Below, piece after piece: positions 38,619 through 55,813 of a stretch of DNA of 64,000 nt (within the stretch, counting starts at the first letter, position 1; each line of letters begins with the position of its first letter). A program made the translations under genes and the position numbers. Source of the DNA: Allolobophora icterica (Eukaryota > Annelida > Clitellata > Crassiclitellata > Lumbricidae); assembly GCA_963556255.1 (NCBI GenBank), contig OY744607.1:49157846-49221845 (forward strand), written 5' to 3'. The notes under the pieces were generated by a model that saw only the letters and a program-made list of their open reading frames with translations, was not told the origin of the DNA and made no database searches.

Positions 38619-38895
38619 AGTAGATGACAAGTGAGCGTTTTGACGCAGGCTGTACAGAAGCGATTTGATATATTAGACTGTCTCTACAGAAAAGGGTCCA
38701 CAGAGGGCCCACAGGATCCACGGACCCTTACCAAAGATCGGTTTCCAAGCAGTGCCTATGGCTATCATGGCTAGAAGTCTTTTGAATCGTGGTGACCAGT
38801 AGCGGTTTCACATCGCAGCGGCGGGAAGCCAGTGCATCCAAGCCTTCTCGTGACCAACTAGCCTTTATAAACAGATCGGCTTTAAAGCTGTGCCT
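38619..38895 (+). repeat. Polinton left terminal inverted repeat
   Basis: Inverse copy of 55537-55813, same 277-bp length, about five mismatches and no indel seen by eye. Left flank bases 38614-38618 are CACTC. Confidence 0.95.
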
Positions 38896-41892: not shown

Positions 41893-44064
41893 CTATACTA
41901 CTGACTGTCCCCCGTGTCTAAAATATGTATAGATCTGGAAGTGGGATATTCCAAAAGTACCTTGTGTTGGGCTGGTGGCCAAGACCACCAGCATGAATTT
42001 TTTGTGTACTGTGTCACTAGTGAAGGTGAACTCTTGTGCAGAATTAGTCAAAGCGACAGTGGAGGAAATGAGAGCAGGGACTCTCTGTGAATCGGTGGTT
42101 GGAACCCCATAAAACTTCCAGGACGTGATACGCGGAGCAGTAGGACTAGATCCCCCGGCCAGACTAACCTTCCATATTCGCACAGGCGTCGGGCATTCAA
42201 TCATTAAAAAAGTCCCTGTAACCCGATCCCCAATCTGGGTTCTCGATGTGGACGCCGTCTTCCACTCACCTCTCACACCCGAGTTGAATGCCATATGGGG
42301 CGGGTTAGTGGGTAAAGATTCGTTGGCTGAGGCAATAAAACCCGTTTCGGAAACGTTTCTGGAAAGGGGCGGAATATGGCCGCTGTAGTTGAGAATTTTG
42401 ATGCCCGTCACGTATCGCCTTTCATTAGCTATCTCACTGTCCACATACTGCTTGTTAGTCAAGTACTTTGGTCCCGCAGGCGCCGTATCATTATTCATAG
42501 TGGCATCAGTGATCAGCTGCGCCACTTGTTTTAAACTCGCGGCGTCACTATCAGATCCTGGAATTTCTGTTGGCAGCCCAGTCACTCTTTTACCACCCAT
42601 AGCCAGATCACCGGTCATGGTACTGCCGGATTTGAGCACGCACGCGTTCCTGACGATAACATCTTGCTCGTTGGCGTACCTCTTAGCAGCTTCAGCTTTC
42701 TGGTCCGCATAGAGTCTAACGGAAGCTCCAATCTCAGCGTTTTTCACGTCAACGTATCGTTTATTTGTCACATGCAACGGTTCTGTTGGTACTCTATCAC
42801 TCTTTGTCATGTTGTCGGCGATCAGCTTCGATACTTGTGCCATACTCGTCGCGTCGCTTTCGGACGTTGCTGCGCCCGTAGGGAGCCCAGTAACTCTTTT
42901 ACCGCCCATGATTAAATCACCAGTCATTGCATCACCAGCTTTAAGCACGCATGCGCTCCTAACGATAACATCTTGCTCGTTGGCGTACGTCTTAGCAGCT
43001 TCAGCTTTCTGGTCCGCATAGAGTCTAACTGAAGCTCCAATCTCAGCGTTTTTCGCGTCCACATACCGCTTGTTAGTCAAGTACTTTGGTCCAGCCGGCG
43101 CCGTATCATTATTCATAGTGGCGCTGCTGATCAGCTGCGTCACCTGTTTCAAATTCGCGGCGTCGCTATCGGATCCTGGAATTTCTGTTGGCAGCCCAGT
43201 CACTCTTTTGCCACCCATGGTCAAATCACCAGTCATAGAATCGCCGCTTTTGAGCACATGCCCGCCTCTTACGATAGCATGCTTCTCGCCCACATATCTT
43301 CTAGCGGTGGTGACCTTCTCATCCACGTACTGTCTGTAAGAAGCGTCGCGGGAATCTACATACCGCTTATTCACCACATGCAACGACTCCATTGGTACTC
43401 TATCGAGTTTAACTAGAGCGCCAGCGACCGCTGTTGACACTTGTTTCCAACTCGCTGCGTCGCTATCGGATCCTGAAATTTCTGTTGGGAGCCCAGTAAC
43501 TCGGTGGCCACCCATAACTAAACTTCCAGTCATTACGCCGCCTGATTTGAGCACGCACGCATTCCTGACGATAACATCTTGCTCGTTAACATAACTTTTA
43601 ACAATAAGGTCCTTGTCATCTGCATACCGCCTAACAGAATCTCTCAGCCCCGCATTCTTCTCGTCCGTGTACTGCCTGGCATCGATAAGTTTTTGGTCTG
43701 CATGATTTTCGGCCGCGGTCGCCTTCTGGTCCGCGTATCGTACCACTTGTGCCCAACTCGCAGCGTCGCTATCGGACGTTGCTGTGTCTGTGGGCAGCCC
43801 AGTAACTTTGTGACCACCCATTTTTAGAACGCCAGACATCGTTCCACCGGTGATTTGTAAGTTGTCCTGATCTATGATGTCTGCATAAGCCTTTGTCGCG
43901 GCGTCTGTTTCCATCGTGGGCGTTCCCACGTTTGTCAGTCGAAAACCTCCAGCCGACAGAATTCCCATCATGGTATCACCCGCTTTGTGGACGAGCCCAG
44001 CGGCGCTTATCTGCCCCCCTCCCACCCCACCTCCACCGTCTCTTCCAAATTTATCAACCGGCAA
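41893..44064 (-). CDS. Polinton fibre-like repeat protein (723 aa)
   Basis: Six repeats of a phage-tail-fibre-type module: M(T/S)G.L.MGG..VTGLPT followed by SD.DA(A/T). The first reads 'AGDTMMGILSAGGFRLTNVG'; the fourth to sixth are 'MTGDL.MGG'. They alternate with heptad-like charged stretches containing 'YADQKAEAAK' and 'NEQDVIVR', which look like trimeric coiled coil. The last 180 residues form a separate Trp/Thr/Ser-rich domain resembling an adhesion (discoidin/lectin-like) beta domain. By analogy it is the host-attachment fibre of the virion form. The 5'-most codon is TTG (44062-44064) with a stop two codons upstream; the first ATG is at residue 32. Confidence 0.85.
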   Translation of the reverse strand: MPVDKFGRDGGGGVGGGQISAAGLVHKAGDTMMGILSAGGFRLTNVGTPTMETDAATKAYADIIDQDNLQITGGTMSGVLKMGGHKVTGLPTDTATSDSDAASWAQVVRYADQKATAAENHADQKLIDARQYTDEKNAGLRDSVRRYADDKDLIVKSYVNEQDVIVRNACVLKSGGVMTGSLVMGGHRVTGLPTEISGSDSDAASWKQVSTAVAGALVKLDRVPMESLHVVNKRYVDSRDASYRQYVDEKVTTARRYVGEKHAIVRGGHVLKSGDSMTGDLTMGGKRVTGLPTEIPGSDSDAANLKQVTQLISSATMNNDTAPAGPKYLTNKRYVDAKNAEIGASVRLYADQKAEAAKTYANEQDVIVRSACVLKAGDAMTGDLIMGGKRVTGLPTGAATSESDATSMAQVSKLIADNMTKSDRVPTEPLHVTNKRYVDVKNAEIGASVRLYADQKAEAAKRYANEQDVIVRNACVLKSGSTMTGDLAMGGKRVTGLPTEIPGSDSDAASLKQVAQLITDATMNNDTAPAGPKYLTNKQYVDSEIANERRYVTGIKILNYSGHIPPLSRNVSETGFIASANESLPTNPPHMAFNSGVRGEWKTASTSRTQIGDRVTGTFLMIECPTPVRIWKVSLAGGSSPTAPRITSWKFYGVPTTDSQRVPALISSTVALTNSAQEFTFTSDTVHKKFMLVVLATSPTQGTFGISHFQIYTYFRHGGQSVV

Positions 44065-44092: not shown

Positions 44093-44467
44093 CTAACATA
44101 AGTCAAGCACGATATCTTCAAAATTCTTTCCAGCAGCGAGCTCTATTAGCACGGCTAGGCAGAGATGACCACATACCACATCATCTGGCCCCTGTAGCTG
44201 AAATGTTTGTGTTCTTATAGGATTTTTTAAATATCTAGAAATTTCGAGAGGCGGATCCAGCCCATAACTGTCAAAATAGACGGCTTTTGGTCCATCTATC
44301 CAATAGGCGACCCAGTGAGTACCATCACCAGAACCGGAATCCAGATTAACAACTCCACACTCCTTCTCACGAGCCACGGCGGGCAGACCATCTCGCATGA
44401 AAACACCGCGGAAATGCGGCAGCGCTCCGGCAACTTTCTCTATATCGAAGTTGCTAAGAGGTTTTAG
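44093..44467 (-). CDS. Adenain-like cysteine protease (C5 type)
   Basis: Virion maturation protease. Numbered from the ATG at 44396-44398 (101 residues): 'GTHWVAYW' with catalytic His28, 'VYFDSYG' with Asp43, Gln69, and 'VCGHLC' with nucleophile Cys76. The Gln-Cys spacing of seven equals that of adenovirus protease. The conserved N-terminal region of the family lies upstream of this ATG and is encoded in the same frame back to 44467 without any ATG. That frame overlaps the end of the pX gene in the -1 register at a slippery heptamer, so expression by -1 frameshift is proposed; loss of an ancestral start codon is the alternative. Confidence 0.85.
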   Translation of the reverse strand, partial: LKPLSNFDIEKVAGALPHFRGVFMRDGLPAVAREKECGVVNLDSGSGDGTHWVAYWIDGPKAVYFDSYGLDPPLEISRYLKNPIRTQTFQLQGPDDVVCGHLCLAVLIELAAGKNFEDIVLDLC

Positions 44468-44473
44468 TTTTTT
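44430..44473 (-). promoter_or_regulatory. Candidate -1 ribosomal frameshift signal
   Basis: On the minus strand, slippery heptamer A_AAA_AAC (44473-44467) is in the pX zero frame and is followed at once by the pX stop TAA (44466-44464). Twelve bases further lies a perfect 7-bp hairpin, GCAACTT (44454-44448) with AAGTTGC (44436-44430), 11-base loop. A CTCT (44460-44457), six bases after the heptamer, could pair with AGAG in that loop to make a weak pseudoknot. The -1 frame enters the protease ORF. Confidence 0.55.
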
Positions 44474-44970
44474 TGTCCGATGTAGAGACCCGATCCTTTA
44501 CACATTGGGCAACAACCACCACGAGTCTCACGCCCGAGATATAAACCAGTCCCGCGGACCTGGGCCTCGAGTTCGCGATTGTGACGCGCCGCCTCCGCCA
44601 GTGCAGCGTCGCTGGCCTGTTTGCTCTGCACAGCCTTTACTACCCCAGCGGTCCCACCAGCCACGGCACCCGCCGCGGATAACCCACCAAAAAGCAGCGG
44701 GAGGAGAGCCAGTAGTGGAAGAAATCCACCCATTTTAGTCATCTTTTTCAATTGCGTTTTGGTGAATCTCAGCTCCATGCCAACGCCTTCCGAAATCTTC
44801 TTCACGATTCGGGCGGCTTGAACTTTCGTAAGCGCGAGCTTATCGTCTCCACGAAGCTGGCCATGAGCGAGTCGGATCGTGGCACCAGTGCCGGCGCGCG
44901 CAGCTCTAGCTAATGTTTGCTTTTGCCCTTCGGTCAGTGAAAGGCCGAACGCAACGTATTCAGTTTTCAT
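44464..44970 (-). CDS. pX/pVI-like Polinton minor virion protein (168 aa)
   Basis: ATG at 44968-44970. N-terminal half is basic and mixed alpha; 'KMTKMGGFLPLLALLPLLFG' starts a hydrophobic, Gly/Ala-rich segment (residues about 80-110). A charged helix with 'AARHNRELEAQ' follows, and a Gly-rich tail repeats GTGLYLG / GSGLYIG around a CPMC pair. This layout is a hallmark of a protein found next to the protease in many Polintons and is compared with adenovirus membrane-lytic pVI. The 'LLFGG' sequence resembles an adenain cleavage site (LxGG). The 3' end overlaps the protease frame. Confidence 0.8.
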   Translation of the reverse strand: MKTEYVAFGLSLTEGQKQTLARAARAGTGATIRLAHGQLRGDDKLALTKVQAARIVKKISEGVGMELRFTKTQLKKMTKMGGFLPLLALLPLLFGGLSAAGAVAGGTAGVVKAVQSKQASDAALAEAARHNRELEAQVRGTGLYLGRETRGGCCPMCKGSGLYIGQKN

Positions 44971-45027: not shown

Positions 45028-46323
45028 CTAGTAGACGACGTTGAATTTGCTGCCATCCGATTCAAAATTCAGGAGTCGGTCGCTGATCAGGACGGCATAT
45101 GCTGTCGTATTATTTGGTACCCCTTCGTTAAAGTCCACCTTGATTTGTATGTCCTGTACAGAGGTTTTAAGTCGTTCAGATTGCCTCCGCACGTCCAGAA
45201 CGAAGATCGGAAACAAATCTACAAATTCGATTGGTGTCAGTTGGCATGACGATTCACGCGCGTCTATGCCGCAATATTCTTCCTTGAAGTCACGTAGGGC
45301 CTTGTAAGCGCGAGAGGTTGTCCTCTTGGTGAAGTCGAGATTCATGTCAACCACCGGGTAGCGATCGCTGTTGAGCATAGCGAAAATGTTGCGAACCTGC
45401 ACATGGTCAAACAGTGCCGGATTCTGGCCTTGATGTGCATTCTTTCCAGTCTGAAAAGCAACAAGAATCCAGCGTGGCTTTTCCGTGCCCGACTTAACGC
45501 TCAAACGCCAGGAAAAAGTCGTCGCTCGTGGCACCGCAATGTTGTCGCATTGCATGGCGCGGAATGCCACAGGTACCTTAACCTTTGCTTCAATCTGCTT
45601 CATAAGCATGCTTTTATACTCCAGAGCGGGTATTATATGCGGCATGAACCAGGAGAGTTTAGTCAGCGCGATCTGGCCATTGGTCGCTGCGGCTTCCTTG
45701 AAGATCGCGTCTGCATCTCCCTGCCGGCTCAGCAGTAAGGAGTGTTTAATCCCGTATACGACCTTGTGATAATCATCGCAAAAACCGAATAGATGTCTTA
45801 AGGGAACGATGAATGAAAATGTGCCAATAGGGACGGGTTTTCCAATGATCATCAGTCGACGGGCCTCAAAGCCGAGATTCAGAGCCGCCGCCGCCGCACT
45901 CGTGTCCTTCTGCCAACACATGTTTAAACCTTCGCCTTTGGAAAAATCATCGCCGTATACCAGCATGCCTTTCATCGTCGTGGCTTGCCCAGGTGACATA
46001 ACATTCTCTATCGCGGTATTGTTAGCCAGGTATCGAATTTGAGAAAACATGTACGGGATGGCGTTGTTGATGAATGACACCAACGTGTCTGCGATGTAAG
46101 CCGCGCCAGTTGTTGTAAGCCTGCCCTCCACAAGAAGGTAACTCTTAGAAGGCTGCGTGAAAATGTCTTGGTTCTGGATGTCTATCTGTATGGCCTGGCC
46201 GTTATTAATAGCCGCGGGATTTTGGGACTCATACTCGCGGTATTCAAACGATTCAATGCTATTATCATCGGGCACCGCCGAAGCGATGTCCAACATTTCA
46301 CTCGGCACGTCAAATGCCGCCAT
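45028..46323 (-). CDS. Polinton major capsid protein (hexon, double jelly roll)
   Basis: 431 residues with ATG at 46321-46323; length fits Polinton/adintovirus hexons. Recognisable family features: N-terminal 'NGQAIQIDIQNQDIF', 'FINNAIPYMFSQIRYLANN' near residue 90, 'IPLRHLFGFCDDY'-like segment near 180, and C-terminal 'FPIFVLDVRRQSERLK' with 'YAVLISDRLL'. Hexons trimerise into the icosahedral shell. TATAATA directly precedes the start. Preceded by a 111-bp gap to the X gene. Confidence 0.92.
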   Translation of the reverse strand: MAAFDVPSEMLDIASAVPDDNSIESFEYREYESQNPAAINNGQAIQIDIQNQDIFTQPSKSYLLVEGRLTTTGAAYIADTLVSFINNAIPYMFSQIRYLANNTAIENVMSPGQATTMKGMLVYGDDFSKGEGLNMCWQKDTSAAAAALNLGFEARRLMIIGKPVPIGTFSFIVPLRHLFGFCDDYHKVVYGIKHSLLLSRQGDADAIFKEAAATNGQIALTKLSWFMPHIIPALEYKSMLMKQIEAKVKVPVAFRAMQCDNIAVPRATTFSWRLSVKSGTEKPRWILVAFQTGKNAHQGQNPALFDHVQVRNIFAMLNSDRYPVVDMNLDFTKRTTSRAYKALRDFKEEYCGIDARESSCQLTPIEFVDLFPIFVLDVRRQSERLKTSVQDIQIKVDFNEGVPNNTTAYAVLISDRLLNFESDGSKFNVVY

Positions 46324-49562: not shown

Positions 49563-50111
49563 ATGTATTGCCTACGATGTAAGAAACATACTGAGACTTC
49601 AAATGAAACAATTGTCGAGTTACGAAACGGTCGGCCAGCCAAGAAGGGAACCTGTGCCGTCTGCGGTGCAAAGAAGAGCCAAATTTTGCCTTCTAAAGTG
49701 CGAAAGACTGGAGGTTCTCTACTGAATAGGGCCCTCAACGCTCTTCCTCTGCCTGAGATGCATATGAGTCTTCCATCCGGTATGTCTTCGGAAGATAATC
49801 CGGGAGGTTCTTTTCAGAACACGGGAAAGTACTCTTACTGTGGACCATTCACAAAACTCGACAAACGGCTGTCACAGCAATATCACGGTGTTAATCAGCT
49901 CGACCGTGCGTGCCTCCACCATGATGTGGCTTACGCAGTTCATAAAGATACCCCAGGGCGTAACCACGCAGATGACATCCTCGCTGCAGCCGCGTCGAAG
50001 ATCGCACTCACCGATGAAACTCCAGATTATGAGAAGAAGGATGCCCGGCTCGTATCGGCCATTATGTCAGCAAAGTCGAGGCTAGGGATGGGTGTTGGAC
50101 GGCGGCGCTAA
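49563..50111 (+). CDS. Zinc ribbon plus phospholipase A2-like protein
   Basis: 183 residues from ATG at 49563. N-terminal zinc ribbon with CLRC (Cys3/Cys6) and CAVC (Cys31/Cys34), a short module common in Polintons and large DNA viruses. Residues 92-140 form a PLA2-like domain of the parvovirus VP1u type: 'YCGPFTKLD' calcium loop, 'DRACLHHDVAY' with catalytic His120-Asp121 and Tyr124, and a downstream 'HADD'. The family cuts phospholipids at sn-2 and in parvoviruses opens endosomal membranes; here membrane breaching by the particle is inferred. Ends in a basic tail. Its stop overlaps the upstream ATG of the integrase ORF (TAATG). Confidence 0.9.
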   Translation: MYCLRCKKHTETSNETIVELRNGRPAKKGTCAVCGAKKSQILPSKVRKTGGSLLNRALNALPLPEMHMSLPSGMSSEDNPGGSFQNTGKYSYCGPFTKLDKRLSQQYHGVNQLDRACLHHDVAYAVHKDTPGRNHADDILAAAASKIALTDETPDYEKKDARLVSAIMSAKSRLGMGVGRRR

Positions 50112-55536: not shown

Positions 55537-55813
55537 AGGCACAGCTTTAAAGCCAATCTGTTTATAAGGGCTAGTTGGTCACGAGAAGGCTTGGATGCAC
55601 TGGCTTCCCGCCGCTGTGATGTGAAACCGCTACTGGTCACCACGATTCAAAAGACTTCTAGCCATGATAGCCATAGGCACTGCTTGGAAACTGATCTTTG
55701 ATAAGGGTCCGTGGATCCTGTGGGCCCTCTGTGGACCCTTTTCTGTAGAGACAGTCTAATATATCAAATCGCTTCTGTACAGCCTGCGTCAAAACGCTCA
55801 CTTGTCATCTACT
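55537..55813 (-). repeat. Polinton right terminal inverted repeat
   Basis: Inverse of 38619-38895; ends ...CATCTACT. The right flank begins CACTC (55814-55818), as does the left flank's last five bases. Confidence 0.95.

Follow-up and report, generated by a model that had tools for sequence, protein, structure and literature searches.

The locus analysed here raises the question of how a protease with no start codon ahead of its conserved beginning is translated. It lies in a Polinton of the lumbricid annelid Allolobophora icterica. Polintons are considered to lie near the ancestors of adenoviruses and of further double-stranded DNA (dsDNA) viruses, and their virions are little known. In the window (the whole 64,000-nucleotide stretch of DNA analysed), the gene for an adenain-like protease overlaps, in the -1 frame, the end of a gene for a protein resembling adenovirus protein X/mu (pX). 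A first-pass annotation had proposed that a -1 frameshift signal couples the two.

The pX-protease junction

The element between the inverted repeats is a complete-looking Polinton (Table 1). Together with the repeats it has the PolB, rve integrase, packaging ATPase (A32-like; identified via Pox_A32, E = 2.4e-8), double-jelly-roll capsid protein and adenain by which Polinton/Maverick elements are recognised. The match of the pX-like ORF to Pfam Adeno_PX (E = 0.0053, 17 bits) does not reach the curated cut-off of 25. Immediately 3' of the protease is a 692-aa ORF (41893-43971, minus strand) with several GGxxVTGLPTxxxxSDSDAAS-like motif repeats and no Pfam match; it looks like a fibre-type repeat protein. 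Elsewhere in the element, the ORF at 49563-50111 (plus strand) has DUF5679 and a phospholipase A2-like domain (PF08398) of the kind found in parvovirus capsids, and possibly encodes a membrane-penetration protein.

Table 1. Features of the Polinton and of its pX-protease junction, in window coordinates
Feature	Position	Strand	Remarks
Left terminal inverted repeat	38619..38895	.	277 bp, 98.2% identity to right repeat
-1 open frame with adenain-like protease	44093..44497	-	conserved part from about 44467; stop 44095..44093
First ATG of protease frame	44396..44398	-	inside the fold, at MRDGLP
N-terminal protease segment, readable in -1 frame only	44399..44464	-	helix 5-12 and strand 18-23 of the predicted model
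7-bp hairpin GCAACTT/AAGTTGC	44430..44454	-	starts 12 nt past heptamer
Zero-frame stop TAA	44464..44466	-	adjoins heptamer directly
Slippery heptamer A_AAA_AAC	44467..44473	-	in zero-frame phase
pX-like (adenovirus protein X/mu-like) ORF, 168 aa	44464..44970	-	C-terminus ...CCPMCKGSGLYIGQKN, then stop
Double-jelly-roll major capsid protein	45028..46323	-	PF21738, E = 3.3e-55; upstream of pX
Right terminal inverted repeat	55537..55813	.	partner of left repeat

The pX ORF (minus strand, 44970..44464) ends GGA CAA AAA AAC TAA, which bears out the annotated position of A_AAA_AAC in the zero frame directly before the pX stop (heptamer and stop together, 44473..44464 on the minus strand). The heptamer has the X_XXY_YYZ form and is in phase; the zero frame comes to its stop, and the -1 frame stays open beyond it as coding sequence. 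Preceded by a TAG at 44500..44498, the protease frame translates as RIGSLHRTKKLKPLSNFDIEKVAGALPHFRGVF-MRDGLP..., and the window copy, open from 44497, has no ATG in this frame upstream of 44398. That the open -1 frame encodes the conserved N terminus of the protease, as the annotation had also claimed, agrees with both the sequence and the predicted structure. Within the segment readable in the -1 frame only, 10 of the 16 variable sites are third positions of that frame (P = 0.016).

The window protease is similar in fold and profile to solved adenovirus proteases. Pfam PF00770 (Peptidase_C5) is matched by 5 of the 36 members of the protease alignment, at E values of up to 0.01, and not by the window protease itself (0 families matched). 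The predicted model has a mean pLDDT of 92.4, its first strand ends at the internal Met, and its alignment to adenovirus protease 4ekf starts at residue 1 in both. In this confident model, the residues encoded in the -1 frame only form an integral helix and strand, predicted to fold as the start of an adenain; translation from the ATG at 44398 would remove all of helix 1 and almost the whole of strand 1. The protease may plausibly cleave pX, because an [MIL]xGG consensus site (searched by regular expression) is present in 9 of the 9 pX proteins tested, the window's included. In the window's pX, the same kind of search finds a site of the LFGG/L type.

Both RNA elements named in the first-pass annotation are present downstream of the heptamer in the window, namely the 7-bp hairpin and a CTCT/AGAG pairing that starts 6 nt past the heptamer. 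Their proposed role as a specific stimulator was not supported. Stimulatory structures are expected 5 to 9 nt downstream, and the hairpin is at 12 nt; each element is complete in 65 of 80 genomic copies, and the hairpin is broken without compensation in the remaining 15. Over the 85 nt downstream, the window copy folds no better than its shuffles (z = -0.22), and the z values of 29 haplotypes lie between -3.56 and +0.57. In a scan along the gene, the segment starting at the stop has the fourth-lowest z (-1.69; lowest, -2.46). A pseudoknot stimulator is not supported, the pairing and the hairpin being unconserved and the folding energy ordinary. The 7-bp hairpin is a possible candidate for a frameshift stimulator.

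Copies in the host genome

The host genome (1.118 Gb) holds many copies; the best 40 of 895 candidates were scored for a DNA query and the best 150 of 1,631 for a protein query. The junctions read number 80. Of these, 30 come from the 40 DNA matches (98 to 100% identical, the window's own included) and 50 from a search with the protein of a relative, namely the 30 that it returned and 20 picked from its list for varied open-frame length. All 80 (49 distinct 210-nt haplotypes) keep A_AAA_AAC and TAA, and none has an ATG upstream of MRDGLP in the protease frame, even though in 13 of them more than 140 open residues precede the internal Met (maximum 194, at locus L094). With heptamer and stop kept and the ATG absent throughout, the A_AAA_AAC-TAA layout is therefore not a defect of one copy. 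These 80 are closely related copies from one genome and were selected as best matches, so that recent amplification and sampling account for part of the agreement among them; because the protein query, which supplied 50 of the 80, spans KKL, copies that had lost the junction would rank lower.

Genome-wide, 780 sites exactly match a 35-place junction pattern (heptamer, stop and anchor), compared with 0 for the reversed control pattern, which is more than chance would give, and the anchor alone matches 793 sites, as against the 780 with an intact junction. Exactly seven A's stand at the junction at 764 sites, and eight, by which the frames would be genetically fused, at 7 scattered sites on five backgrounds. 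These counts make the layout a family trait and say little about selection. Three of the loci with an eighth A (G000:C7:3188938, C4:9597577, and C7:5827728) have a protease frame open for 304 to 327 aa and are natural in-frame pX-protease ORFs. The host genome carries a large and apparently recent Polinton expansion: for the protease gene alone, the anchor matches at 793 or more places in 1.1 Gb, and identity among the 30 nearest copies read is 98 to 100%. With the metagenomic protease P0020 as query, no separate family of its MPLSN type was found in the host genome, the best 150 of 1,629 candidates being 61 to 64% identical to P0020; the places returned partly coincide with the best 150 of 1,631 from the other protein query.

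Metagenomic relatives

Of the protease homologues, the best 120 of 134 were taken, and 112 of them were placed in a tree with the window, short or odd rows being dropped. The window falls in a 29-row clade (support, 95/91) in which 14 rows, the window included, show KK[LV] where the two genes meet, 11 are predicted only from the internal MRD-type Met onwards, and 4 (P0009, P0016, P0019, and P0032) are of other kinds; two rows of the tree were labelled by hand, the window (KK[LV]) and P0017, which lies outside this clade. Heptamer rows and internal-Met rows are interspersed and do not form two clades (10 changes each, with 373 and 358 of 500 shuffles as low), as expected if gene callers have cut the same gene differently.

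Among the pX homologues, a Cys motif near the end is found in 29 of 120, and of those 20 end in KN, 2 in KK, and 7 otherwise. In an enumeration, the only DNA compatible with both KN-stop (zero frame) and KKL (-1 frame) was AAAAAA(C/T)T plus a stop, and relatives with these two peptide ends imply the same heptamer because the ends permit only AAAAAA(C/T) followed by a stop. Three pX/protease pairs, assembled on the basis of a common source and equally long contigs, fit one DNA in both frames (11/11, 12/12, and 12/12 codons). A control of such pairing, in which each of 12 KKL proteases was compared with 22 pX ends and its three best partners were considered, gave a mixed result: P0011 fully fits its own partner and the next at only 7/12, P0002 fits three pX proteins fully, and P0003, P0014, and P0039 have no full fit among the 22 (best 11/13, 7/13, and 8/13). 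Each of the pairs P0188/P0034 and P0128/P0018 combines a pX ending in SKN with a protease that is predicted only from MRD onwards. The metagenomic sequence P0205 is a single-ORF pX-protease fusion, which may be a sequencing or homopolymer variant. Overall, the junction is conserved across lineages, outside the host genome as read from peptide ends only, with the exception of P0009, which lacks KKL, P0019, and the MPLSN group (P0020, P0021, P0025, and P0027, whose proteases begin MPLSNFD).

No relative was found in viral_contigs, whether the query was the capsid protein, the protease or its alignment, the alignment of pX, or either of two DNA patterns. By tblastn, loci L100 and L101 encode no relative and L001 gave no match. 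A pattern search of genome_contigs returned 18 loci, none a convincing homologue; the best, L007, had 8 matches from 120 protease queries, the best six of which are short (33 to 56 residues; lowest E, 5.6e-6), and has no protease around it.

The best of the alternatives is that the protease is translated alone in the -1 frame, initiating at a non-AUG codon or by stop and restart, with the heptamer incidental. In the sister lineage P0139/P0019, the pX end PSKK-stop and the protease start MKKV fit an overlapping ATGA in place of the heptamer, and the four MPLSNFD proteases fit a start at the same place. Furthermore, an M is listed upstream of KK[LV] in 10 of the 13 KK[LV] clade homologues (P0003, P0004, P0006, P0007, P0010, P0011, P0013, P0014, P0015, and P0039), with V in two and L in one. 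Some gene-calling programs translate every start codon as M; the M of P0010 would be a GTG codon if its pairing with P0186, whose pX reads Met-Cys there, holds, and an ATG of their own is possible in the other nine. Against such a start stand the absence of an ATG from every host copy read, long open frames included, and the predicted loss of helix 1 and nearly the whole first strand that a restart at 44398 would entail. The listed starts also vary in letter and place among the relatives, and 11 more clade rows are called only from the internal Met. We consider independent initiation unlikely.

The idea of a conserved -1 signal joining pX to the protease therefore stands in large part: heptamer, stop, and overlap, with no ATG, are kept in all 80 copies, and many relatives imply the heptamer, but some relatives have or may have an ATG. 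The first-pass annotation had named close relatives with the same overlap and an ATG instead of the heptamer as one observation that would speak against it; the idea largely withstands this test, P0019 and the MPLSNFD group being among the relatives that fit an ATG start.

Frameshifting and the remaining alternatives

A spliced transcript could instead join an upstream exon to the protease frame. Adenoviruses express many late genes via splicing to upstream exons, and transcription of Polintons presumably takes place in the nucleus, but splicing leaves unexplained the six A's, C/T, and stop that are kept in phase in both frames, and we regard it as very improbable. Slippage of RNA polymerase on the A run, giving mRNAs with an extra A, would suit the A7 run at the window junction and the longer runs implied in some relatives (KKKL and EKKL), but FKKL relatives imply only six A's, generally a short run for such slippage, and this reading is less probable still. 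Least probable is a dead copy with its start codon lost or its frame mutated: 96% of Maverick loci in vertebrate genomes are degraded, according to PMC8097293, but the same layout is present in 30 of 30 copies at 98 to 100% identity (the window included) and in 50 of 50 others, which contradicts the loss of a start codon in one copy that had been offered as the alternative, and it is also implied in the metagenomic relatives.

We favour programmed -1 frameshifting at the A_AAA_AAC on the pX stop, which on the sequence evidence would give mostly free pX and some pX-protease fusion (probability, roughly 0.8). The protease is likely made as a fusion because it has no start of its own, is in the -1 frame, and lies directly behind a slippery sequence that is kept. 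Ribosomes would translate pX as far as A_AAA_AAC-TAA, where the two genes overlap; the majority would stop at the TAA and release free pX, and a minority would slip back one base on the heptamer and produce the fusion. More speculatively, the pX part may bring the protease into the virion core, where its substrates would be cleaved, and the fusion would then both deliver and dose the protease.

In retroviral gag-pro and gag-pro-pol genes, -1 frameshifting at A_AAA_AAC fuses the protease to a structural protein. The Polinton junction has the same type of heptamer, a zero-frame stop nearby, and the protease in the -1 frame, and the proposed product would likewise fuse the protease to a structural protein that enters the virion. 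Unlike retroviruses, the Polinton is a dsDNA element, its protease is an unrelated cysteine protease (adenain), the stop follows the heptamer directly, and a conserved stimulatory structure was not found at the junction. It also differs from the adenoviruses, in which adenain has its own start codon, in that no start codon is available ahead of the conserved beginning of the protease. Fusion of a protease to a structural protein by slippage is thus already known, and a pX-protease frameshift site in Polintons was not found described in the literature searched, which lay largely outside subscription journals. To this extent the earlier statement that nothing of the kind had been described for Polintons holds; it has to be qualified in that a 2024 preprint (PMC11071296), in the part covered here, raises -1 frameshifting as a hypothetical possibility for the adintovirus Penton and "Hexon-Adenain (Hexain)" ORFs, at another gene junction, giving as support a KnotInFrame prediction and "a similar relationship" and presenting no conservation data. 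Hexain, as presented in that part of PMC11071296, is alike in that a -1 frameshift in a related virus group would fuse adenain to a virion protein, and differs in its partner, which is Hexon; here the partner is pX, and the layout is kept in many copies and implied in relatives.

A wider reading, which we hold tentatively and at somewhat less than even odds, is that this whole dsDNA Polinton lineage expresses its virion protease as retroviruses do: a conserved A_AAA_AAC-stop would yield a minority pX-protease fusion, the core protein pX would bring the protease into the capsid in a fixed proportion, and its Cys-rich tail, joined to the protease N terminus, would be a possible built-in cofactor. 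ORF callers can cut the protease short at the internal Met, where 15 of the best 120 homologues (of 134) begin, and the 10-nt junction signature is easily assayed. If frameshifting is confirmed, conserved fusion of the maturation protease with a core protein would reveal by what route and at what dose the protease enters the particle, and would represent convergence with retroviral gag-pro.
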